Part shown: piece after piece, positions 3,268-26,864 of the stretch
Position numbering within the stretch: the stretch's first letter is position 1
Layout: every line of letters begins with the position of its first letter
From: Ignavibacteriales bacterium
Lineage (GTDB): Bacteria; Bacteroidota; Ignavibacteria; UBA10030; UBA8401
Assembly (NCBI GenBank): GCA_026390635.1
Contig: JAPLFO010000111.1
Coordinates: forward strand, 1-51,090
Direction of reading: 5' to 3'
Length of the DNA: 51,090 nucleotides
Notes under the pieces: generated by a model
Database searches by the model: none
What the model was told of the DNA's origin: nothing
The model's input: the letters and a program-made list of their open reading frames with translations, nothing else
Translations under genes and position numbers: made by a program

Positions 3268-4634
3268 GGCTGTTTTACCGGAATGTGGAGTTCGTCCATT
3301 TTCCGGTACAACGATGAGAGGCTGATACCGAGTTCCTTTGCCGCCGCCTCTTTGTCGGACACGTGGCGTTGAAGCACCTGAAGAATATGCCGCCGCATGA
3401 AGTTCTTCGTTGCGTCCTTCAGGGAAGCTCCGAACGACGGCTCCAGACCGGGTTCATTGGAGAGCGTATGCATGTAGTCCGGCAGGTGCTGCACATCGAT
3501 ATAGTCCGAATCGCAGAAGATAATGGCACGCTCGATGACGTTCTGAAGTTCGCGGACTTCTCCCTTCCATTGATAGTGCATCAGCACATTCATGGCTTGA
3601 TTGGTCACGCCCTTGATGTTTTTCCCCATCTGGTTCCGGTACAACTCGATGAAGTGGTTGATCAACAGAGGAAGATCATCCGCCCGCTCTGTCAGACTCG
3701 GCAGATGAATTTCCACGACATTCAGACGGTAGAAAAGATCTTCCCGGAAGCGATTGGCGGCAACCTCTTCGCGAATATTCTTGTTCGTCGCGGCGACGAG
3801 GCGCACATCGATCTTTATCGCATCATTCCCGCCGATCGGAAAAATCTCCCGCTGTTCGAGCGCACGAAGAAGTTTCACTTGCAGGTGGAATGGTATTTCC
3901 GTCACCTCGTCCAGCAGGATGGTCCCGCCTTCCGCAACTTTCAGAATGCCGTCCTTGTCCGATACGGCGCCGGTAAATGACCCTTTCTTGTGTCCGAACA
4001 ATTCACTTTCAAACAGCGTTTCGACGATGGCGCCGCAATTAATGGCTGCGAATCGTTTATACTGTCGTTTACTGTTATAATGAATCGCGCGAGCCACCAG
4101 TTCCTTTCCCGTACCGCTCTTACCGCTGATCAACACCGTGCCTTCGCTCTTCGCAACCTTCTGAATCACGTCGAACACCCGCTGCATCGCCGGGCTGCTG
4201 CCGATGATCTGATGAAAATCATACTGCCGGTTGATCTCCTTCCGCAGGAGTGAGTTCTCCAGCGCCAGATCCCGGTGGTCCAGAAGTTTTTTGACGCGAA
4301 TGAGCATATTGTCAAACTCGATCGGCTTCAGGATGTAGTCGTATGCGCCCTTGCGAAGCGCATCAATAGCGGTCTCGATGGACCCATACGCTGTGATAAT
4401 AATGACAAAAGTCTGCGGCGATCGGGCGGCAATTTTTGCAAGGAGCTCCGTTCCGCGCATTTCCGGCATCTCGATATCAGTGATAACGATGTCGTATGAA
4501 ATTGCAGAGACTTTTTCAAATGCCTCCTGGCCGTTCTTCGCCTCATCGACTTCGTATCCTTCTTTCCGGAGAATAAATGTCAATGAATCACGAATAATTT
4601 CCTCATCATCCACAACCAGAATTCTATCCGACAT
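3264..4634 (-). CDS. NtrC-type sigma54-dependent response regulator (receiver-AAA+-Fis HTH)
   Basis: Transcriptional activator of 456 residues. The receiver domain (1-120) has the phospho-acceptor D53 (ITDIEMPEM) and K103 (ILKPIEF). The AAA+ domain (about 140-380) has Walker A GKSGTGKE at 171-178. The sigma54-contacting loop reads GSFTGA (218-223) where most family members have GAFTGA; this conservative change is seen in functional members. A Fis-type helix-turn-helix (DKEAAAKELGISLSSLYRKM) ends the protein. The ATG at 4634 has AAGGA 8 bases upstream and overlaps the kinase gene by 11 bases, so the two form a cognate pair. The target promoters are not evident. Confidence 0.92.
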   Translation of the reverse strand: MSDRILVVDDEEIIRDSLTFILRKEGYEVDEAKNGQEAFEKVSAISYDIVITDIEMPEMRGTELLAKIAARSPQTFVIIITAYGSIETAIDALRKGAYDYILKPIEFDNMLIRVKKLLDHRDLALENSLLRKEINRQYDFHQIIGSSPAMQRVFDVIQKVAKSEGTVLISGKSGTGKELVARAIHYNSKRQYKRFAAINCGAIVETLFESELFGHKKGSFTGAVSDKDGILKVAEGGTILLDEVTEIPFHLQVKLLRALEQREIFPIGGNDAIKIDVRLVAATNKNIREEVAANRFREDLFYRLNVVEIHLPSLTERADDLPLLINHFIELYRNQMGKNIKGVTNQAMNVLMHYQWKGEVRELQNVIERAIIFCDSDYIDVQHLPDYMHTLSNEPGLEPSFGASLKDATKNFMRRHILQVLQRHVSDKEAAAKELGISLSSLYRKMDELHIPVKQP

Positions 4635-8483: not shown

Positions 8484-9784
8484 GTGCGCGCTCCTTCTTC
8501 GGGAAGCACATGGCCGAGCGTCGACTTTGCGTCCAGGATGTACTGTCGTGCGACGCGCCGGATGTCAGCAACCGTTGTGTGTTCGGTTCTCTTCATGAAT
8601 GAGAACTGCATCGCCAGATTATCCGCCATGATATAGCCCTCACCGAGATTACGGGCCAGATTTGACTGCGAGAGTATGGATTGATACAGTCCCCGCTGCA
8701 GATTGTTCTTAACAACCTGCATCTGGTCATCGCTGATGCGGCCAAGCGCCAGTTCTTCGACAGCGGCGAAGAATATATTCTGCACATCGTCGTAGGGAAT
8801 CCCGTCGACAAGTTGCACGAGGAACTCAAACATTCCGGAATCACGCGAATTGAATGCATCAGCCACCAGCTCGGTGACCTTTGCGCTGTACACAAGCCGT
8901 TCCCGCAATATGGCGCTCTTTCCGGATGTCAGAATGCGGCCCAGAACTGCAAGCGCCGGATAGTCCGGATGTTCCACGCTCGGCACATGCCACAAGCGTG
9001 CGGAAATCGGTTTCACTGCCTTGGGATGAGTAATGGTAATAGAACGATCTTCTTTCTGCGGAGGCTCCTGCATCGAGAGACGCGACGGTGTCGGTGCCAG
9101 CGGGATATTCCCATACTTTTCACCGATGATGCTCATCACCTCTTCCGCCCAGACGTCCCCGACGACGATCACGAGCGCGTTGTTCGGCGCATAATATCGG
9201 CGATAGAATTCCTCTGCTTCCTGCACCGTAAAACTCTTGATCGTCTCAATATCACCGATGGTCGTGTACCGGTAATTGTGGGTAGTGTAGGCCTCTTTGT
9301 ACAACACATCCCACAGGGCTCGCATCGGATCGTCGAGGGTGCGGTTCTTTTCCGCCAGTACTGCTCCTTTTTCGATTTCAAACGTCTCTTCATCGATAAT
9401 GAGATTCTGCATACGGTCGGCTTCCAGGTCCGCTGCAAGTTCCAACTTCTCCACAGGAAACGTAAAATGATAGACGGTCTGATCGCGGGCGGTGTACGCG
9501 TTGAGGTCTGAGCCGCCGCTGAAATTGACCTCCTGATCGAAAACCCCCGTATTCCTTCGCGATGTTTTACGGAACATCATGTGTTCAAAAAGATGGGCCA
9601 ATCCCTGCCGTCCGGCGGGTTCGTCAGCAGACCCAACTTTGTACCACGTTTGATAGGCAAAAATCGGAGTTGTGTGATCCTCAACGACAGCAACGGAAAG
9701 TCCGTTCGCCATCCGGAATCGTTGCGCACGGAGGGAGCCCACGAGCGGATATTCCGCGACAAATTCATAACCGTTCATAGACAT
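8480..9784 (-). CDS. M16-family zinc peptidase, catalytic subunit
   Basis: Zinc metallopeptidase of 434 residues. The inverted zinc motif HLFEH is at 64-68 and the third ligand E145 (AVLAEKNR) is at the expected distance of about 76 residues. The usual second domain follows (about 180-430; DVWAEEVMSIIGEKYG, ARLWHVP). The family degrades peptides or processes proteins; the substrate here is not known. Two starts are possible: the ATG at 9784, or the in-frame ATG at 9778, which has AGAGGA 5 bases upstream and may be the better one. It is the first gene of a two-gene unit with the inactive partner and lies after the terminator that closes the recD2-HIT-M28 unit. Confidence 0.9.
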   Translation of the reverse strand: MSMNGYEFVAEYPLVGSLRAQRFRMANGLSVAVVEDHTTPIFAYQTWYKVGSADEPAGRQGLAHLFEHMMFRKTSRRNTGVFDQEVNFSGGSDLNAYTARDQTVYHFTFPVEKLELAADLEADRMQNLIIDEETFEIEKGAVLAEKNRTLDDPMRALWDVLYKEAYTTHNYRYTTIGDIETIKSFTVQEAEEFYRRYYAPNNALVIVVGDVWAEEVMSIIGEKYGNIPLAPTPSRLSMQEPPQKEDRSITITHPKAVKPISARLWHVPSVEHPDYPALAVLGRILTSGKSAILRERLVYSAKVTELVADAFNSRDSGMFEFLVQLVDGIPYDDVQNIFFAAVEELALGRISDDQMQVVKNNLQRGLYQSILSQSNLARNLGEGYIMADNLAMQFSFMKRTEHTTVADIRRVARQYILDAKSTLGHVLPEEGART

Positions 9785-19091: not shown

Positions 19092-19741
19092 ACCTGGTCC
19101 ACAATCGATAAAATGTCTGGAAATGCGTCTATGATCCATGTTGGATCCAGCGCCGTAAGTTGCTCCCGTGAAAATGAACCGTACGTCACACCGCACGATT
19201 GAATAGAAGCGTTTTTTGCCGCACCAATGTCCTTGTCCGTATCTCCGACCATCACGGCCGCGACGCGGTCCCACCCCTGCTCAATGAGAATTTTATTGAT
19301 GATGAACGGATCCGGCTTGGCCGGCGTCTGGTCCGTGCCCTGTATCTGGCAGAAGAAATGTTCGATACCGAAATGACGGAGCATCATCGTTGTTGTTTGC
19401 GTCGATTTCGTTGTCGCAACGGCCAGCAGGGAGCCGCAACGCCTCAGCTGCTCCAACGATTCCGCCACACCGGGAAATAGTCGTGTGGTATCGAATGCAT
19501 GCGCGAGGTAATGCTGGCGATAGATCAGCGCTGCTTCGGGAATCCGTGAATGCATTTCCACGGGCAGCAAGAATTCGAACGTCTCACGCATCGGTTTACC
19601 GATATTCGGGTAGATATCCTCCGCCGAAAACCCGGCGATGCCGAGCTCGTTGAGCGTCAACAGCTGTGCATGTGCGATGTCGCGCCTGGAATCGAACAGT
19701 GTTCCGTCAACATCAAAAATGAAATTTCGAATACCTTTCAC
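19088..19741 (-). CDS. HAD-superfamily phosphatase, Gph/PpaX-like
   Basis: Cytoplasmic hydrolase of 217 residues. Motif I is FDVDGTLFDS, motif II VATTKST, and motifs III/IV are KPDPFIINKIL and MVGDTDKDIGAAKNA. The helical cap lies between residues 15 and 85. The family removes phosphate from small metabolites such as phosphoglycolate, pyrophosphate or nucleotides; the substrate is not evident. I chose a GTG start at 19741, with GGAG five bases upstream. Upstream ATGs in the same frame lie inside the interspersed repeat at 19767-19941, so the longer reading is an artefact. Confidence 0.87.
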   Translation of the reverse strand: MKGIRNFIFDVDGTLFDSRRDIAHAQLLTLNELGIAGFSAEDIYPNIGKPMRETFEFLLPVEMHSRIPEAALIYRQHYLAHAFDTTRLFPGVAESLEQLRRCGSLLAVATTKSTQTTTMMLRHFGIEHFFCQIQGTDQTPAKPDPFIINKILIEQGWDRVAAVMVGDTDKDIGAAKNASIQSCGVTYGSFSREQLTALDPTWIIDAFPDILSIVDQV

Positions 19742-19766
19742 AGCAACTCCATTTGGAATAAAAACC

Positions 19767-19941
19767 TTGCCACAGAGACCACAGAGTCCATCGGCGCGTC
19801 CGGCTTTCGCCGGACTCGCTCGGGATGACGTAAATAATATTTCGTGATGGTGAGCGAGTCCCGAAGGGACGAGTCGAACCATTCTCTGTGTCCTCTGCCC
19901 GCTTCGCCGAGCTCAGCGAGGCGAGTGATCTCTGTGGCAAA
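19767..19941. repeat. Interspersed repeat, copy A, with 12-bp terminal inverted repeats
   Basis: The ends are perfect inverted copies: TTGCCACAGAGA (19767-19778) and TCTCTGTGGCAA (19929-19940). Bases 19893-19941 are identical, in reverse complement, to 25636-25684 of copy B (49 bp). Inside are further inverted parts (for example ccggctttcgccgg, and gcgagtcccgaagggacgagtcg). It sits between the MscS-like gene and the HAD gene, both on the minus strand, and contains no credible gene. Confidence 0.85.
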
Positions 19942-19956
19942 TAAAACACTCAGCGA

Positions 19957-21093
19957 CTATCTTTTTTTCGCAACTGTGCCTTTGTTCCTCCGGCCTTCGT
20001 TTTCTGCAATGGTGATTGTCTGCTGCTGCGTGGCAAATTCAATGCCCGCCTTTTTAAAAACATCAATCACCTGCATGCGAAGCGCTTCGGCTGTCGCAAA
20101 CTGTTCGCCCACGTGTGCCACACGGCACACCAGACGGAAGTGCAGGGCATAGTCGCCGAAGCGGATCAAGAACACCTCCGGTGCCGGTGTTCGTAGTACA
20201 GACGAATGATCTGCGGCCATTTTTTTGAGGACGCGTTTGACATTTTCCGCATCGGTGCTGTAGGGAACCGCCACGTCCACAACAACCCGCACGACCGGAT
20301 CGGGGAATGTATAGTTGATAATTTTTGTTTTGATCAGTTCGTTATTGGGAACGATCAGCATATTGTTGTCAAAATCGAGGATCTTCGTACTCCGGACGCC
20401 GATTTCGAAGATATCGCCCTCTTCATTTGTCGGAAGCTTCACCCGATCGCCGACACGGAACGGGCGGTCGATCATGATCACAAAACCCGCAATCATGTTC
20501 GAAATCGTGTCCTGTGCCGCCAAGGCGACCGCCAACGAACCAACGCCGAGGGATACCAGAAGCGTTGAAATGTTCTGGTTGAAATGGTCGAGCACGACAA
20601 TGAATGCAACCGCAATAATCACAATATTGACAACACGATTGATGAGCGGCGCAAGTTCCTGATCGAAATTGGTTGCACCCTTCTGTGCCACACGCTGTAA
20701 CCCCTGCCGGACAAACGTATCGGCAATTCGGATGGCTACGGCAGAGAGCACAAGCGCCATCAAGACAAACAATGCGCCGTTGGAATACTCGAGCAATGCA
20801 TGAACTGCAGTCGGCCGTTCGGGCAGTCCTGTACGCAGTTGAAGCAGTCCGCAGTACATCGCCGTAATGGCCGTGATCGACATCAGGCGATCAAGCACGA
20901 TACCGAGAATCTTGTCGTCAAGATCATTGCGGGTTTTCGAAATCAGTTTTCGTCCGATTGTATTCAGCAGGAACTTGAGCGATTTCCCGATGAGCAGCAC
21001 AAAGAGAATAATGAGGACCCCTTTCACGGCGTGAAAAAGAATTCCGCCCCCCAGAAAGGAATCAAGCTGCATAAAGAATTGTCTCAGCATCAT
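19957..21093 (-). CDS. MscS-family mechanosensitive channel
   Basis: Small-conductance mechanosensitive channel of 378 residues in the inner membrane, releasing solutes on osmotic downshock. Three or four N-terminal hydrophobic segments (about 20-45, 70-90, 105-130, 155-185) precede the pore-lining TM3 (SLGVGSLAVALAAQDTISN) with its Gly/Ala packing pattern. The cytoplasmic beta domain follows (IDRPFRVGDRVKLPTNEEGDIFEIGVRST, LIVPNNELIKTKIINYT). The ATG at 21093 overlaps the pyrE stop (ATGA). A second ATG directly follows, so the start could be three bases lower. The repeat element begins 16 bases after its stop. Confidence 0.9.
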   Translation of the reverse strand: MMLRQFFMQLDSFLGGGILFHAVKGVLIILFVLLIGKSLKFLLNTIGRKLISKTRNDLDDKILGIVLDRLMSITAITAMYCGLLQLRTGLPERPTAVHALLEYSNGALFVLMALVLSAVAIRIADTFVRQGLQRVAQKGATNFDQELAPLINRVVNIVIIAVAFIVVLDHFNQNISTLLVSLGVGSLAVALAAQDTISNMIAGFVIMIDRPFRVGDRVKLPTNEEGDIFEIGVRSTKILDFDNNMLIVPNNELIKTKIINYTFPDPVVRVVVDVAVPYSTDAENVKRVLKKMAADHSSVLRTPAPEVFLIRFGDYALHFRLVCRVAHVGEQFATAEALRMQVIDVFKKAGIEFATQQQTITIAENEGRRNKGTVAKKR

Positions 21094-21671
21094 TGGAGCC
21101 CCCTGCTGCCCGGTTTGATGGCTGCACTCCCGGACGCACAGAGCGGACATTGCTCCGGCGTGTAGGTCGTCACTGCCAGCGTCAACACCGGAAATGTTTT
21201 TGCATCGAATTGAACTTTGCCGTTGCTGCGATCAACGATGTAGCCCACTCCCGCCAGTCTTGCACCGCCCGCGTGTACAAGCTGGACAATTTCCTTAACG
21301 GAGCCTCCGGTCGTCACCACATCTTCTACAACAAGCACGCGCTCGCCTTTCTTAATCTCAAAACCACGGCGTAGCTTTATGTCTGTCCCTTCGCGTTCAC
21401 CAAAGATGGTTCGCACACCCAGCACGCGTCCGACTTCCGTTCCGACCACGATGCCTCCGACCGCCGGTGAAATAACCAGCTCGATATCACTGTACTCGAA
21501 ATGCTTTGCAATTTCCCCGGCAAACAGATGAAGATATTTTGGATACTGCAGCACCTTCGCACATTGGAAATAGTTCGGACTGTGCAGACCGGACGTCAAC
21601 AGGAAATGTCCTTCCAGTAATGCATTGGTCTGCCGGAAGATTTCCAGAATTTCTTCTTTGGGAAGCTTCAT
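21090..21671 (-). CDS. pyrE: Orotate phosphoribosyltransferase
   Basis: Enzyme of 193 residues that joins orotate and PRPP to give OMP in de novo pyrimidine synthesis. The PRPP-binding motif is VLVVEDVVTTGGS, and the family's catalytic loop region reads FGEREGTDIKLRRGFEI. The N-terminus LEGHFLLTSGLHSPNYFQ is typical of the long bacterial/archaeal form. It overlaps the radical SAM gene upstream and mscS downstream by 4 bases each. A C-terminal CPLCASG segment is slightly unusual but within the variation of this branch. Confidence 0.93.
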   Translation of the reverse strand: MKLPKEEILEIFRQTNALLEGHFLLTSGLHSPNYFQCAKVLQYPKYLHLFAGEIAKHFEYSDIELVISPAVGGIVVGTEVGRVLGVRTIFGEREGTDIKLRRGFEIKKGERVLVVEDVVTTGGSVKEIVQLVHAGGARLAGVGYIVDRSNGKVQFDAKTFPVLTLAVTTYTPEQCPLCASGSAAIKPGSRGLQ

Positions 21672-22669
21672 GCTGTGTTCCTCTCCGTGATAAAGGGGGA
21701 TATTTTGTTGCTGAAGTCCGGGCGATAGAAATCGCTGCTGTCAAATTCCTGTGTCCAGCCGTTCTGCAGGCCAAGCCGGTCCATTATGGCAAGAACTTTT
21801 TCGTATTCACGTTCACGAAGTCGTCGGTCAAGCAACTCGATCTTCGGTGCTTTGTGTGCCGGATAGTATTGCGCCATGAGGCTCACCGTCACGCGTGGAT
21901 CCAATGCGGCGGCAATCCACCGCAGCACTTCCTCGGTCATCGCAAGATCGTTCGGCAGCACAAGATGCCGGATGATAAGTCCGCGATTGATCAGATCATT
22001 CCCATCCGTGACAATTGCGGCACCAACTTGACGGTACATCTCTGCAATGGCAGCGTGAGCAATCTCCGAGTACGAACGGATGCCGGAATACTGAAACGCA
22101 AATTCGTCATCCCCATATTTCAAATCCGGCAGATAGATGTCGATGATGCCGTCCAACAGCCGGAGAACCTGGGCGCTGTCAAAGCCATTCGAATTATAAA
22201 TGAGAGGAAGATGAAGACCGCATGTTGCAGCCAAATGTACCGCGCGCACAATCTGGGGAACGAAATGGCTTGGCGTCACTAAGCCGATGGCCCGTGAACC
22301 GGCGCTCTGCAGTTCGAGCATCATATCCGCCAGACTTTCGATCGATATCTCGTTCTTTTCTTCCGCCTTCCAATTCTGGCTGATCTGATGATTCTGGCAA
22401 AAGACGCACTGCATTGTGCAGTTCGAAAAAAAGATATTCCCGACTCCATCCAGCCCGCCGAGTGCAGGTTCTTCGCCAAAATGCCGACATGCCGTGGAAA
22501 CGATCGGCAGGCGTCCCGAATGACAGCGGGCGAGCTCATTTTGCAGGCGATTGTTTCCACAATTGTGCGGACACACAGTACACGCCAGCAATAACGCTTC
22601 CAGGGAATCTGCCCTTTTTTGAAGTTCTCCGGAGTGGAGAAGCGGTATGTAAGAAGGTCCAGATTGCAT
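21668..22669 (-). CDS. COG1313-type radical SAM protein (PflA/PflX-like)
   Basis: Radical SAM enzyme of 333 residues. The cluster motif CTMQCVFC (C84, C88, C91) follows GNIFFSN. The N-terminal region carries extra cysteines (C30, C33, C37, C49 in CTVCPHNCG...ARCHSG), a mark of the COG1313 group resembling pyruvate formate-lyase activase. Its substrate is unproven. No partner glycyl-radical enzyme is nearby. I chose the ATG at 22669, immediately downstream of a -10 element. An in-frame upstream start at 22735 would precede the promoter. It is the first gene of the pyrE-mscS unit and diverges from the thioredoxin-like gene. Confidence 0.82.
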   Translation of the reverse strand: MQSGPSYIPLLHSGELQKRADSLEALLLACTVCPHNCGNNRLQNELARCHSGRLPIVSTACRHFGEEPALGGLDGVGNIFFSNCTMQCVFCQNHQISQNWKAEEKNEISIESLADMMLELQSAGSRAIGLVTPSHFVPQIVRAVHLAATCGLHLPLIYNSNGFDSAQVLRLLDGIIDIYLPDLKYGDDEFAFQYSGIRSYSEIAHAAIAEMYRQVGAAIVTDGNDLINRGLIIRHLVLPNDLAMTEEVLRWIAAALDPRVTVSLMAQYYPAHKAPKIELLDRRLREREYEKVLAIMDRLGLQNGWTQEFDSSDFYRPDFSNKISPFITERNTA

Positions 22670-22679
22670 GAGAATATAT

Positions 22680-22708
22680 AATATAGCGAAATCGCATGAT
22701 GAATTCCA
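22680..22708 (-). promoter_or_regulatory. Promoter upstream of the radical SAM-pyrE-mscS unit
   Basis: Minus-strand TATATT (22685-22680) in the context TTCGCTATATT, as at two other genes here. The matching -35 position, 17 bases upstream, reads TGGAAT and is poor. The ATG is only 10 bases after the -10 box, so the transcript would have almost no leader. Confidence 0.45.
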
Positions 22709-22728
22709 GGTTTGGCTGCTCTGCCGGG

Positions 22729-22757
22729 TTGACAAAACATGGATGGGGTGCTATATT
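22729..22757 (+). promoter_or_regulatory. Consensus sigma70 promoter for the thioredoxin-like gene
   Basis: TTGACA (22729-22734), 17 bases, TATATT (22752-22757). Transcription would start near 22764, about 20 bases before the ATG at 22784, leaving room for the AGGAG Shine-Dalgarno at 22772-22776. Confidence 0.8.
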
Positions 22758-22783
22758 GAAGCATTCACTTCAGGAGATTTTTC

Positions 22784-23278
22784 ATGAAAACCGTGTCGTT
22801 GGTAGTCGTTTGCCTCTTTCTCAGCTTGGGCACGGCGACGGCAGAGATAAGAGATACCACACAAAGCCAAATTCAGAAATTCGATCCTGTCCGGAACCCC
22901 GACCACGACCTGGACAGTGTTAAAGTGCTTGCCAAACAAAGTGGAAAACGCATCCTGTTGGACGTCGGCGGTGAATGGTGCAAATGGTGCCAATTTCTCG
23001 ATTCTTTTTTCGAGCAGAATGCTGATGTTGCCCGCTTTTTGCGGCGGAACTACATCGTAGTGAAGATCAACTTCAGTAAAGAGAACAAGAACGAGGCATT
23101 TCTGTCGAAATATCCGGCAGTTGCCGGATATCCGCATTTTTTCGTGCTTGACAGCGAAGGCAAACTCCTTCATTCGCAGGATACCGGGGCATTGGAAAAC
23201 GGCAGTAAGGAAAACCCCGGACACGATCATGACAAAGTCCTTGCCTTCCTGAAAGAATGGGCACCCAAATGGAAGTAG
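22784..23278 (+). CDS. Secreted thioredoxin-like protein (thioredoxin_7 type)
   Basis: Exported protein of 164 residues. Signal peptide MKTVSLVVVCLFLSLGTATA. The redox motif WCKWC (C66, C69) follows ILLDVGGE, then the thioredoxin fold with a cis-proline segment (AVAGYPHFFVLDSEGKLL). Proteins of this type act in periplasmic disulfide or thiol exchange. AGGAG lies 7 bases before the ATG. It has its own promoter, and no close operon partner is seen. A small hairpin (CGGCT-AACA-AGCCG, 23296-23309) follows the stop without a U-run, so the terminator is uncertain. Confidence 0.88.
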   Translation: MKTVSLVVVCLFLSLGTATAEIRDTTQSQIQKFDPVRNPDHDLDSVKVLAKQSGKRILLDVGGEWCKWCQFLDSFFEQNADVARFLRRNYIVVKINFSKENKNEAFLSKYPAVAGYPHFFVLDSEGKLLHSQDTGALENGSKENPGHDHDKVLAFLKEWAPKWK

Positions 23279-23426
23279 GTTCCGAACGCCTGCAGCGGCT
23301 AACAAGCCGTTGCCGGCATCTCGTGTGATCACCAATACCTTCGCTCCGACAAAATTCTCCTGTCCGCCGCCCCAAAGGGATCGCTCCGCTATTTCACCTA
23401 AAAGTTGAGCGAAACCCGCAAATTCA

Positions 23427-23455
23427 TTGACTAATCAATCATTTATCCTTAAATT
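23427..23455 (+). promoter_or_regulatory. Sigma70-type promoter for purN-purH
   Basis: TTGACT (23427-23432), 17 bases, TAAATT (23450-23455). The predicted start, near 23462, excludes a TTG codon at 23456 as start and supports the GTG at 23486. Confidence 0.65.
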
Positions 23456-23485
23456 TTGACATTCTTACGTACAGAGCGCTATCTC

Positions 23486-24083
23486 GTGCTGAATATAGCT
23501 GTTTTTGCATCCGGTCGTGGTTCAAATTTTCGCGCTCTGATCGATTCTTTGCAAAGCGATCCTATCGATGCGAAGATTGTTCTTCTCGTTAGCAATAATT
23601 CGAATGCAGGTGCGATGGAGTTGGCGCGATCTGTTGGAATTCCGGCGATCCATCTCAGTAGAAGAAAAAATTCCGGTGAACCGGAATTTGTGCACGAGAT
23701 GATCGAGACACTCCGTCGTTTTGATATCGGATTAATTGTTCTCGCAGGATACATGAAGAAGATCCAAAATTGTCGCCGCATATCACGATCGGATCATCAA
23801 CATTCATCCGGCATTACTTCCCGCGTACGGCGGCCATGGAATGTTCGGACATCATGTGCACGAAGCGGTACTCGCTGCAGGGGAACACTTCTCCGGAGCA
23901 ACCGTTCACTATGTCGATGAAGAATTTGATCGCGGAAAGATTCTTCTTCAGGAACGTGTTGCCGTGATGAACGATGATACGCCCGATACCTTGGCGGCGC
24001 GCATCCTTGAGGTTGAACACAAACTACTTCCGATGGCGGTCAGACACATCGCAGCTCTACAGCATAATCACATTCAGGGATAA
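23486..24083 (+). pseudogene. purN: Phosphoribosylglycinamide formyltransferase, frameshifted in this sequence
   Basis: The gene encodes the formyl transfer from 10-formyl-THF to GAR in purine synthesis, but is split between two frames. The first part (VLNIAVFASGRGSNFRALI to IVLAGYMKKI) reads from the GTG at 23486. At 23762-23766 the frame changes and continues KIVAAYHDRIINIHPALLPA, HHVHEAVLAAGE and VHYVDEEFDRGKILLQE. The catalytic Asn/His (NIHP) and Asp (VDEEFD) are all in the second frame, so the first product alone would be inactive. The change is a net +1 (or -2) next to CCAAAA. Everything else is well conserved and purH follows by three bases. A recent mutation or a sequencing/assembly error is therefore as likely as true loss. 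Confidence 0.88.
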
Positions 24084-24086
24084 CCG

Positions 24087-25631
24087 GTGTTACAGATTCG
24101 ACGGGCATTACTGAGCGTTTCAGATAAAGAGGGTCTCCTCGAATTTGCTGCCGGACTGCATGCGCTGGGTGTTGAATTGATCTCAACCGGCGGCACACAT
24201 GCGCTGCTCGCATCGAATGACATTCCCGTCAAGCAGGTATCTGAGATCACCGGTTTTCCGGAAATTCTGGATGGCCGCGTCAAGACGCTTCATCCGTTGG
24301 TGCATGGCGGCCTGCTTGCCGTACGCGACAATCCGCTGCATCGTAAACAGTTGGATGAACTCGCGATTGTACCCTTCGACATGGTGGTGGTGAATCTGTA
24401 TCCCTTCGAAGCAACGATTGCAAAGCCGAACGTTTCGCTGGAGCAGGCAATCGAGAATATCGACATCGGCGGGCCAGCGATGCTCCGGTCGGCAGCGAAG
24501 AACTATCGCTTCACCGCAGCGGTGACGAGTCAGTCGCAATACAATGCCCTGCTCGCCGAACTGCACGAACGCAACGGCGCACTCAGTGAGGAAACAAGCT
24601 ACCGGCTCGCAAGAAAAGTCTTTGTCCATACGTCGCAATACGATGCGGCAATCGCGGACTATCTTTCGCTTCAACAAGATGACGGCAACGACGGACAAAT
24701 GACGGATGTGCTTCGCTTCTCGCTCCGGAAAGAAATGGATCTGCGCTACGGCGAAAATCCGCATCAACGTGCGGCGTTGTACGGCAATTTCCTTCAGCAT
24801 TGCAAGCCGTTGCATGGCAAAGAACTATCCTACAATAATATTCTGGACACGGACGCCGCCGTGCGCCTCGTGTCGGAGTTCGATACGCCGGCGGTGGTGA
24901 TTGTGAAGCATATGAATCCATGCGGTGTCGGCACTGGTGCAACATTGCTGGAGGCATATCAGAAAGCACTCGCAACAGACCGGCAATCCGCGTTCGGCGG
25001 CATTGTCGCCTGTAATCGCCCGTTGGATACTGCGACGGCAAAAACGATGAACGAGATATTTTCCGAAGTGATCGTTGCACCGGAGTTTCCCTCCGAAGTT
25101 CTGCAATTGATGACCGTGAAAAAAGACCGCCGGTTGCTGCAGCATACTCCCGCCGCGGCACCTGCTTTTGAGTTGCGGAGCGTCACGGGCGGTGTGCTGG
25201 CACAAACCGTCGATGCAGTGCGCGAAAACGAAATGGCCGGGATGTTCGTTGTGACGCAGCGGCAACCGACCGATACGGAAAAGCGGGCGTTGATGTTCGC
25301 TTGGAAGGTTGCAAAACACGTAAAATCGAACGCCATCGTGTATGCAGCGGAAGACCGGACGCTTGGTATCGGAGCGGGCCAGATGTCCCGTGTGGATTCT
25401 GCCCGCGTCGCCGTCGCGAAAGCGGCAGAAGCAGGCCTTTCATTGAAAGAATGCGCCGTTGCATCGGACGCTTTCTTCCCCTTTGCCGATGGCCTGCTTG
25501 CAGCGGCTTCCGCAGGTGCCACGGCGGTGATACAACCGGGAGGCTCCAAACGGGACGAAGAGGTTATTGCCGCCGCGAACCAGCACAACCTGGCAATGAT
25601 CTTCACCGGCGTTCGGCATTTCAGGCACTGA
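24087..25631 (+). CDS. purH: Bifunctional AICAR transformylase/IMP cyclohydrolase
   Basis: Protein of 514 residues for the last two steps of IMP synthesis. The IMP cyclohydrolase domain (1-200) shows ISTGGTHALL, GRVKTLHPLVHGG, VVNLYPFEA and NIDIGGPAMLRSAAKN. The AICAR transformylase domain (about 200-514) shows LRYGENPHQ, KHMNPCGVGTG with the catalytic Lys-His, and SAFGGIVACNRPLD. The start is a GTG three bases after the purN stop, so co-translation with purN is expected. Length is normal. A repeat element follows 4 bases after the stop. Confidence 0.96.
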   Translation: MLQIRRALLSVSDKEGLLEFAAGLHALGVELISTGGTHALLASNDIPVKQVSEITGFPEILDGRVKTLHPLVHGGLLAVRDNPLHRKQLDELAIVPFDMVVVNLYPFEATIAKPNVSLEQAIENIDIGGPAMLRSAAKNYRFTAAVTSQSQYNALLAELHERNGALSEETSYRLARKVFVHTSQYDAAIADYLSLQQDDGNDGQMTDVLRFSLRKEMDLRYGENPHQRAALYGNFLQHCKPLHGKELSYNNILDTDAAVRLVSEFDTPAVVIVKHMNPCGVGTGATLLEAYQKALATDRQSAFGGIVACNRPLDTATAKTMNEIFSEVIVAPEFPSEVLQLMTVKKDRRLLQHTPAAAPAFELRSVTGGVLAQTVDAVRENEMAGMFVVTQRQPTDTEKRALMFAWKVAKHVKSNAIVYAAEDRTLGIGAGQMSRVDSARVAVAKAAEAGLSLKECAVASDAFFPFADGLLAAASAGATAVIQPGGSKRDEEVIAAANQHNLAMIFTGVRHFRH

Positions 25632-25635
25632 AATA

Positions 25636-25774
25636 TTTGCCACAGAGATCACTCGCCTCGCTGAGCTCGGCGAAGCGGGCAGAGCAAGCCTTCCAGCAAG
25701 CTGAACGATAGCAGTGTGGTCCAAATCGGATACTTCGCCAATTTCTTTGTGTCCTCTGTGATCTCCGTGGCAAA
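25636..25774. repeat. Interspersed repeat, copy B, with inverted ends
   Basis: The element begins TTTGCCACAGAGATCAC and ends GTGATCTCCGTGGCAAA, a 17-base inverted pair with one mismatch. Its first 49 bases equal the reverse complement of 19893-19941 in copy A. The middle differs. It lies between purH and mreB and starts 4 bases after the purH stop, so it could act as an intra-operon hairpin or terminator. Confidence 0.85.
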
Positions 25775-25790
25775 GAAGCTCTTATGATTT

Positions 25791-25819
25791 TTCAGATTCT
25801 TTTCAACATCATTTAATTT
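25791..25819 (+). promoter_or_regulatory. Possible promoter for mreB-mreC
   Basis: TTCAGA (25791-25796), 17 bases, TAATTT (25814-25819), 20 bases before the mreB ATG. The -35 match is partial, so this is tentative. Confidence 0.35.
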
Positions 25820-25838
25820 TTCGGAGTTTCTAACTTCC

Positions 25839-26864
25839 ATGGCATTTTATTCGCCTTTTTCCGCGGACCTCGCGGTCGATCTGGGGACAGCAAACACTCT
25901 TATCCACATGAAGGGCAAGGGGATTGTCCTGAATGAGCCTTCGATCGTCGCGTTCGACCGCAACACAAAGAAAATTGTTGCCATCGGCAACGAGGCCCGC
26001 GAGATGCTCGGCCGGACTCATCGGGACATACGCACCATCCGGCCGATGAAGGACGGCGTGATCGCCGACTTCGAAATTGCCGAAGGGATGCTCCGGGAAT
26101 TTATCAAAAAGATTCACGTCAACTGGATTCCCAGCCGGCGCATTGTTGTTTGCGTGCCGAGCGGTGTTACAGAAGTGGAAAAGCGTGCCGTGCGCGATTC
26201 TTGCGAACATGCGGGCGCGAAAGAGGTGCATCTGATTGCAGAACCAATGGCGGCCGCGATCGGCATCGGGCTTGATGTTGACGCCCCCGTCGGCAATATG
26301 GTCGTGGATATCGGCGGCGGCACGACCGAAATCGCCGTCATCGCCCTGTCCGGCATTGTCAACGAGGAGTCCATCCGCATCGCCGGCGACGAAATGAATT
26401 CCGCCATCATTCAATTCTTCAAGAAGAATCACAACATTCTGATCGGCGAACGTACCGCCGAAGCGATCAAATGTGAAGTCGGCTCCGCCATGCCGTTCAA
26501 GGAAGAGATCACGATTCACGTCAAAGGCCGCGATCTTGTCAACGGCATTCCGAAAACGACCGAAGCGAGCTCCGAAGAAATCCGTGAGTCGCTCAACGAG
26601 TCTGTACAAGCGATCGTCAATGCGGTGAAGTTGACACTGGAGCGCACACCGCCAGAACTTTCGTCGGACATTCTCGATCGCGGAATCATGTTAAGCGGTG
26701 GGGGGGCATTGTTGAAGGGACTGGACGAGCGCCTGCGCCTCGAGACGAATCTTCCCGTCCACGTCGCCGAAGATCCGCTGACCGCTGTCGTACGCGGAAC
26801 CGGCAAGGTGTTGGAAAATCTAAACCAATATCTCAAAGTCGTCCTGAAGAGCAGACGGTACTAA
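25839..26864 (+). CDS. mreB: Rod-shape-determining actin-like protein MreB
   Basis: Bacterial actin of 341 residues that forms membrane-bound filaments guiding lateral cell-wall synthesis. The N-terminal phosphate-1 region reads AVDLGTANTLI, then RPMKDGVIADF, phosphate-2 VVDIGGGTTEIAVI and the adenosine motif IMLSGGGALLKG. The length is normal. GGAG lies 12 bases before the ATG. mreC follows by three bases. Placement after purN-purH matches a known arrangement in Bacteroidota and Chlorobi relatives. A rod or elongated cell shape is therefore likely. Confidence 0.97.
   Translation: MAFYSPFSADLAVDLGTANTLIHMKGKGIVLNEPSIVAFDRNTKKIVAIGNEAREMLGRTHRDIRTIRPMKDGVIADFEIAEGMLREFIKKIHVNWIPSRRIVVCVPSGVTEVEKRAVRDSCEHAGAKEVHLIAEPMAAAIGIGLDVDAPVGNMVVDIGGGTTEIAVIALSGIVNEESIRIAGDEMNSAIIQFFKKNHNILIGERTAEAIKCEVGSAMPFKEEITIHVKGRDLVNGIPKTTEASSEEIRESLNESVQAIVNAVKLTLERTPPELSSDILDRGIMLSGGGALLKGLDERLRLETNLPVHVAEDPLTAVVRGTGKVLENLNQYLKVVLKSRRY

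Follow-up and report, generated by a model that had tools for sequence, protein, structure and literature searches.

Gene-less palindromes in an Ignavibacteriales genome as probable relics of a small hairpin-armed mobile element with a GxxExxY nuclease gene

What is a palindrome without a gene of its own doing between two genes of one strand, and where did it come from? The question is raised by copy A, a repeat in the window (the whole stretch of DNA analysed, 51,090 nucleotides of an Ignavibacteriales genome), and again by copy B, which shares an arm with it. An earlier note, made from the letters of the window, took copy A for a MITE-like or REP-like mobile element. We consider it probable that both copies are relics, i.e. 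non-autonomous copies, of a small hairpin-armed mobile element with a single gene.

Position and anatomy of copies A and B

Copy A lies between mscS and a HAD gene, both on the minus strand, and thus splits a same-strand pair, as the earlier note had said. The following features were distinguished.

19766..19941, no strand: copy A, a palindrome that has no gene and contains nested modules (delimited by the C136 copy and others)
19767..19786, plus strand: left arm of copy A, TTGCCACAGAG-AC-CACAGAG
19787..19882, no strand: module Y, palindromic, nested in copy A, with paired hairpins ...GGACTCGCTCGGGATGAC...GTGAGCGAGTCC...GACGAGTCGAACCAT
19884..19941, minus strand: right arm of copy A, CTCTGTG-TC-CTCTG (28-nt module X) TG-AT-CTCTGTGGCAAA
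19898..19925, no strand: module X (CCCGCTTCGCCGAGCTCAGCGAGGCGAG), 28-nt near-palindrome inside one CACAGAG unit
19742..19882, minus strand: spurious N-terminal stretch of the HAD ORF, derived mostly from copy A
25636..25774, no strand: copy B, a palindrome without a gene in the purH-mreB interval (last base of the purH stop 25631, first base of mreB 25839)
25636..25684, plus strand: left arm of copy B, with module X inside at 25652-25679
25745..25774, minus strand: right arm of copy B, CTTTGTGTCCTCTGTGATCTCCGTGGCAAA

The 12-bp inverted ends claimed for copy A are exact (TTGCCACAGAGA, 19767-19778, and TCTCTGTGGCAA, 19929-19940), and the element holds no gene, as claimed. The arm said to be shared with copy B is indeed 100% identical, but over 50 bp (19893-19942) rather than 49. 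The mscS stop codon has its last base at 19957, 15 nt from the end of copy A. In the list of open reading frames the HAD ORF begins at 19882, with its first residues encoded by the element and the spacer; translation from the GTG at 19741 yields VKGIRNFIFDVDGTLF. The listed N-terminus is therefore false, as had been suspected. A strong RNA hairpin is also predicted, copy A folding at -86.2 kcal/mol (z -6.87 against shuffles). The predicted fold of copy B is at -54.3 kcal/mol (z -3.85).

A second full-length copy of A, 97% identical, is present at C136:1388-1563 in the same genome. With a 2071-bp query, homology to this copy runs exactly from 19766 to 19941 and ends at the arms. Other A-like copies are 77-94% identical over 121-167 bp, and module Y is common to A-like copies at other places. 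The only two relatives with both neighbouring genes matched on one contig (G015 and G005) have more intervening DNA at the copy A junction.

At the purH-mreB junction, CACAGAG/CTCTGTG is absent before mreB in 23 of 23 relatives. The end of purH could be read in 22 of them; all are armless, with spacers of 8-130 bp versus 207 bp here. Since every readable relative is armless, copy B is, judging from this sequence comparison, an insertion.

Repeat family in the genome

A search of the genome (3,980,580 bases, 202 contigs) for TTTGCCACAGAG, one mismatch being allowed, gave 170 matches (89 + 81), versus 19 (9 + 10) for the reversed pattern. A stricter two-unit pattern gave 70 matches versus 0 for the reversed control. 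The idea that the identity of A and B reflects a local duplication only clearly fails in the face of so many other copies. Each end of a family member is an arm built of tandem 9-mers, GCC-CACAGAGNN-CACAGAG, and the two arms are inverted relative to each other; the copies read show this plan, with GCC followed by the 9-mers and the inverted form at the opposite end. The smallest complete copies measure 70, 71, 78 and 84 bp and differ in their loops. Module X adjoined CACAGAG units in 21 of 22 matches within the fetched stretches of this genome, a count made on both strands in which some matches may appear twice.

The consensus of the arm end, TTT/TTA-GCCACAGAG, was derived from 47 ends in this genome and 140 in others. 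Outside the arms, the flanks are A-rich before the element and T-rich after it. When ORFs of at least 100 aa were taken as genes, 75 of 82 element ends lay outside long ORFs and 7 inside; on the outer side, 38 ends faced a gene stop at a median distance of 22.5 nt, and 37 faced a gene start at a median of 50 nt. The target-site duplications that the earlier note had proposed to look for were not found: no excess of 3-9-bp direct repeats was seen at offsets from 0 to 21 in 18 pairs of ends from this genome and 63 from others. The element therefore has no exact junction signature. Promoter and terminator scans returned no hits, and Rfam had no match in 19500-26100 at E <= 0.1.

The strong folds of copies A and B, the A-rich and T-rich outer flanks, and the placement of ends outside long ORFs and close behind stops would fit arms that are a host feature, i.e. 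terminators or RNA hairpins under selection, into which a gene was captured. The terminator scan found none, and this reading does not lead one to expect the lineage burst, the empty sites and the sharing of letters across phyla described here. We consider it very improbable. A terminator effect of the arms may be secondary.

A GxxExxY gene enclosed by the arms

At C23:54782-55307 of the same genome, the arms enclose an intact gene for a 120-aa GxxExxY protein (PF13366, PD-(D/E)XK nuclease). Its family membership is clear (TIGR04256, 132.8 bits with a cut-off of 35; PF13366, 129.1 bits with a cut-off of 22). The genome contains five PF13366 matches, and CACAGAG arms occur only at this one. The C198 gene has CACAAAG-like arms, the C64 gene ATGATT-type arms and the C116 gene none; the C73 gene has CGCAAAG-like arms by eye and a low automatic flank score of 7.5. 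CACAGAG-armed genes were also found in L157 (Acidobacteria) and in L257 and L266, from the same family as the window, and L107 (Planctomycetota) has an N-terminal GxxExxY remnant within CACAGAG arms. The genome of L107 (G112) has 12 GxxExxY matches, several of them short N-terminal fragments (profile positions 3-32, 3-47, 3-50 and 3-54), which look like the outcome of internal decay.

The linkage of gene and arms was quantified by a flank score that compares the upstream flank with the reverse complement of the downstream flank. It was computed for 65 GxxExxY genes, 35 of the order (5 from this genome and 30 others) and 30 of other genomes; the loci were drawn from the high-scoring genes rather than from all matches, and the 30 of other genomes came from a set chosen for carrying the repeat. 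A score of at least 13 was reached by 45 of the 65 genes, versus 0 of 34 neighbouring ORFs and 2 of 10 Y1 genes. Against a control of 4160 mismatched flank pairs, 36 of the 65 exceeded the 95% level (3.3 expected) and 19 the 99% level (0.65 expected). For high-scoring GxxExxY genes drawn evenly from Planctomycetota, the phylum of one genome chosen for the repeat, the score was at least 13 in 22 of 29, with 19 above the 95% level. Scores under 13 were obtained for 20 of the 65 and 7 of the 29. Nine of the 50 genomes selected for the repeat, mostly draft MAGs, had no GxxExxY match, and phage records had none at E <= 1e-5.

By eye, the arms lie 0-100 nt outside the gene. They share a common grammar of (A/G)CC followed by units of about C-R-C-N-R-A-G/T separated by one or two spacer bases. 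Arm similarity tracks protein identity (r 0.39, 990 pairs from 45 armed loci), also when only pairs between the order and other genomes are considered (r 0.36, 504 pairs, p 0.0005). With the proteins of the CACAGAG-armed Betaproteobacteria loci L302 and L299, the C23 protein shares 63% and 59% identity, and with three other GxxExxY proteins of its own genome 34-40%. The CACAGAG-armed L301 protein is only 35% identical to it, indicating that arm flavour and protein are not strictly coupled. The arms and the nuclease gene are probably one unit, inherited and horizontally moved, of which copies A and B would be gene-less members.

The protein is predicted to be a nuclease. The C23 model has a pLDDT of 95.6, and its best fold match was 4ic1 (SSO0001, a Cas4), with a Foldseek E of 9.1e-4 and, over 100 residues, Z 9.5 at an rmsd of 4.2; the next entry had Z 7.4. 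A single chain of the 990 in the structure search reached Z 8, so that the absence of other families from the list is uninformative. A sequence search of the PDB found no match at E <= 1. In 63 aligned GxxExxY proteins, G22, E25, Y28, E35, Y53, D64, E74, Q88, Y92 and N105 are invariant, and K76 is present in at least 90%; D64 and E74 are the predicted catalytic residues. This alignment omits two of the 65 genes, L228 with an internal stop and L213 with a degenerate active site. A D...ExK motif together with QxxxY marks RecB/Cas4-type nucleases. The C23 model has both the fold and these residues, which points to a RecB/Cas4-like PD-(D/E)XK enzyme. It resembles the Cas4/RecB-type nucleases in these respects and differs from them as a stand-alone predicted nuclease of 120 aa between inverted arms.

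Full-length, decayed and empty states at orthologous sites

The site between a glnD-like gene and murI was read in 18 genomes, one of which (G008) was left without an assigned state. A full-length element is present in two, with an open gene in G002 and one in-frame stop in G019. Three retain left-arm remnants only (G016, G017 and, very short, G010), and G021 has a gene-less palindrome of another flavour. G011 has a CACGAAG-armed remnant with the 3' end of the GxxExxY gene (FNVPLIKKGIKRIIL, stop), the start being in another frame. Eight genomes are armless, and two have other kinds of repeats. A single orthologous site thus presents full-length, decayed and empty states.

Records of named isolates also contain the cassette, between fabD and fabG in Sphingomonas parapaucimobilis and between radA and the gene of an FAD-dependent protein in Bacteroides finegoldii. 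It is absent at the corresponding junctions in Sphingomonas paeninsulae and Parabacteroides distasonis. The radA junction of Phocaeicola was set aside because it holds another gene.

The differing flavours at the one glnD-like/murI site and the insertion between conserved gene pairs would agree with a homing-type nuclease that cuts empty alleles and in this way copies its element to the equivalent site in other genomes, solo palindromes being products of decay. Against this, a single genome has the repeat at roughly one hundred dispersed positions whose flanks are unrelated, which does not resemble homing to one site. We regard a homing mechanism as quite unlikely.

Spread in the order and in other phyla

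Among 98 genomes of the order, 16 contain the two-unit pattern, with 70 matches in the genome of the window versus at most 16 in any other; the reversed control gave 0 in all 98. To judge by these letters, the distribution appears patchy, with a burst in one lineage. GxxExxY genes are present in 15 of the 16 genomes with the pattern versus 50 of the 82 without it (Fisher p 0.0099), a co-occurrence that is weak because the relatives are not independent.

A three-unit scan of named genomes yielded at least 118 stretches. The 80 among the matches listed include loci from Planctomycetota, Acidobacteriota, Betaproteobacteria, Chloroflexota, Spirochaetota, Calditrichaceae, Aminicenantes and Latescibacterota, and also from a Peptococcaceae and a Methanosarcinaceae archaeon; nearly all are MAGs, in which binning errors could misplace some contigs. 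Among these 80 foreign loci, 59 have an inverted partner within 350 bases and 21 do not. In two of the latter, L146 and L157, a gene fills the gap.

Y1 transposases and known repeat systems

The genome has five matches to Y1 transposases. None of the three examined (C46, C92 and C159) adjoins CACAGAG arms, the nearest lying about 1.3 kb from the C92 gene. In relatives, 2 of 10 Y1 genes reached a flank score of 13 and none reached 15.

REP sequences form hairpins, are intergenic and are not known to have target-site duplications. The palindromes described here share these properties, Y1 genes occur in 34 of 41 related genomes, and an IS200-like transposase gene lies within CACAGAG arms in an Abditibacterium MAG (L146:580-1334). 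These observations, and the resemblance of module Y to sequence beside the C92 Y1 gene, would suit a RAYT or IS200-like Y1 transposase that moves the palindromes via hairpins, with GxxExxY as a passenger. The flank scores of the Y1 genes and the three armless Y1 genes of this genome speak against it, and coupling of the GxxExxY protein to arm flavour across phyla is not expected of a passenger. This makes a Y1 transposase an unlikely driver. RAYT in particular was rejected because no CACAGAG arms stand beside the Y1 genes examined and the enclosed gene is that of a GxxExxY nuclease. For the outer element, the REP-like reading with RAYT thus found no support.

Module Y (19787-19882) resembles a stretch just 3' of the C92 Y1 gene (L072:5233-5396). 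This likeness suggests that RAYT-type repeats may nest in the hairpin element, and by sequence resemblance a module of this kind may be nested inside copy A.

REP/BIME/REPIN sequences with RAYT are short intergenic palindromes with many copies in several phyla, and relatives of them flank a small gene; TIRtrons have inverted repeats around a gene (PMC3733652, consulted in part). As far as the same source goes, the likeness to REPtrons and TIRtrons consists in multicopy intergenic palindromes and in inverted repeats that flank the small gene of the element. The differences are arms of tandem 8-9-mers without a GTAG/CGTC end tag, and a PD-(D/E)XK nuclease in place of the Y1 tyrosine transposase. 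Since neither the end tag nor linkage to RAYT was found, the element is, by the tests run, not a REP.

MITEs resemble the element in terminal inverted repeats, small size and derivation by deletion from a coding element. Here, no target-site duplication and no transposase were found, and loops vary between copies. A coding parent with the same ends does exist, namely the C23 copy, alongside decayed copies, although its gene is not that of a known transposase. The MITE-like reading is thus right in broad terms, given that the palindromes are dispersed, relatives have empty sites and a coding form has left decayed derivatives. It does not hold for the target-site duplication, and by the tests run the element is not a classical MITE.

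The 23S rRNA intervening sequences with the S23 ORF (PF05635) are, in the part of the source consulted, small selfish elements of horizontal origin with one short ORF (PMC4990558), and in this they are alike. They sit in rRNA and carry PF05635, whereas copies A and B lie between protein genes and the protein belongs to another family. By the tests run, the element is not a 23S intervening sequence.

Proposed origin of the palindromes

The relic reading accommodates the observed dispersion and anatomy, the empty sites, the decayed derivatives, the linkage of gene and arms in many phyla and the co-variation of arm and nuclease. The complete form would be about 400-550 bp long and consist of an arm made of 8-9-bp units, two or three in tandem, a GxxExxY gene (PF13366/TIGR04256) of about 120 aa, and the inverted arm. 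Loss of the gene would leave a palindrome of about 70-250 bp that could still spread, presumably through nuclease acting in trans; A and B would be such palindromes, carrying other palindromic modules.

We infer that the nuclease moves the element. The RecB/Cas4-like PD-(D/E)XK enzyme would recognise the repeated units, which offer several binding sites per arm, and would cut the hairpin or cruciform that the arms form, possibly where replication forks expose single-stranded DNA. Annealing and repair by the host would then insert the released hairpin elsewhere, mostly between genes, and no target-site duplication would arise. Neither movement nor a new insertion between close strains was observed.

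No account of a link between GxxExxY and arms was found in the literature searched, a partial body that leaves most subscription journals and bioRxiv preprints outside. The passages on GxxExxY that it offered make no mention of repeats, and the repeat letters CCTCTGTGGC led to no related paper within it. Small selfish elements with hairpin ends are known as such, in REPtrons and intervening sequences.

A wider proposal seems to us evenly balanced between true and false: that many short palindromes of bacteria and archaea (CACAGAG, CACGAAG, CGCAAAG, CACAGAT and kindred) are relics of one minimal class of nuclease elements, and that PF05635 drives a parallel class with 7-bp units. If true, a common class of bacterial repeats would have a driver and an origin, and the known mobile elements would gain a member that is among the smallest and relies on a nuclease instead of a transposase. 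False ORFs and false N-termini in annotations would also be accounted for. Since nature offers many combinations of nuclease and arm flavour, the way in which DNA might be moved by a PD-(D/E)XK enzyme could be tested directly.

Additional observations

Another repeated hairpin (CGTTCCCAAGC...TTGGGAACG) is present in several copies near the Y1-type genes of C92 (L072:1798-2565, 4071-4097 and 8493-8518). The same locus encodes, at L072:8424-10118, a protein with an NPFNPSTTIRF-type C-terminal sorting-like domain, which would fit a host of the Bacteroidota/Ignavibacteria type.

PF05635 (S23/four-helix) was detected in 82 of the 98 genomes of the order. Genes of this family (L304-L333) have inverted arms of 7-bp units of the GGCAATA, CAGCAAT and TAAGTTA types. 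Of the 30 loci, 28 could be scored; 10 of these exceeded the 95% level of the mismatched-pair control, and 7 the 99% level.
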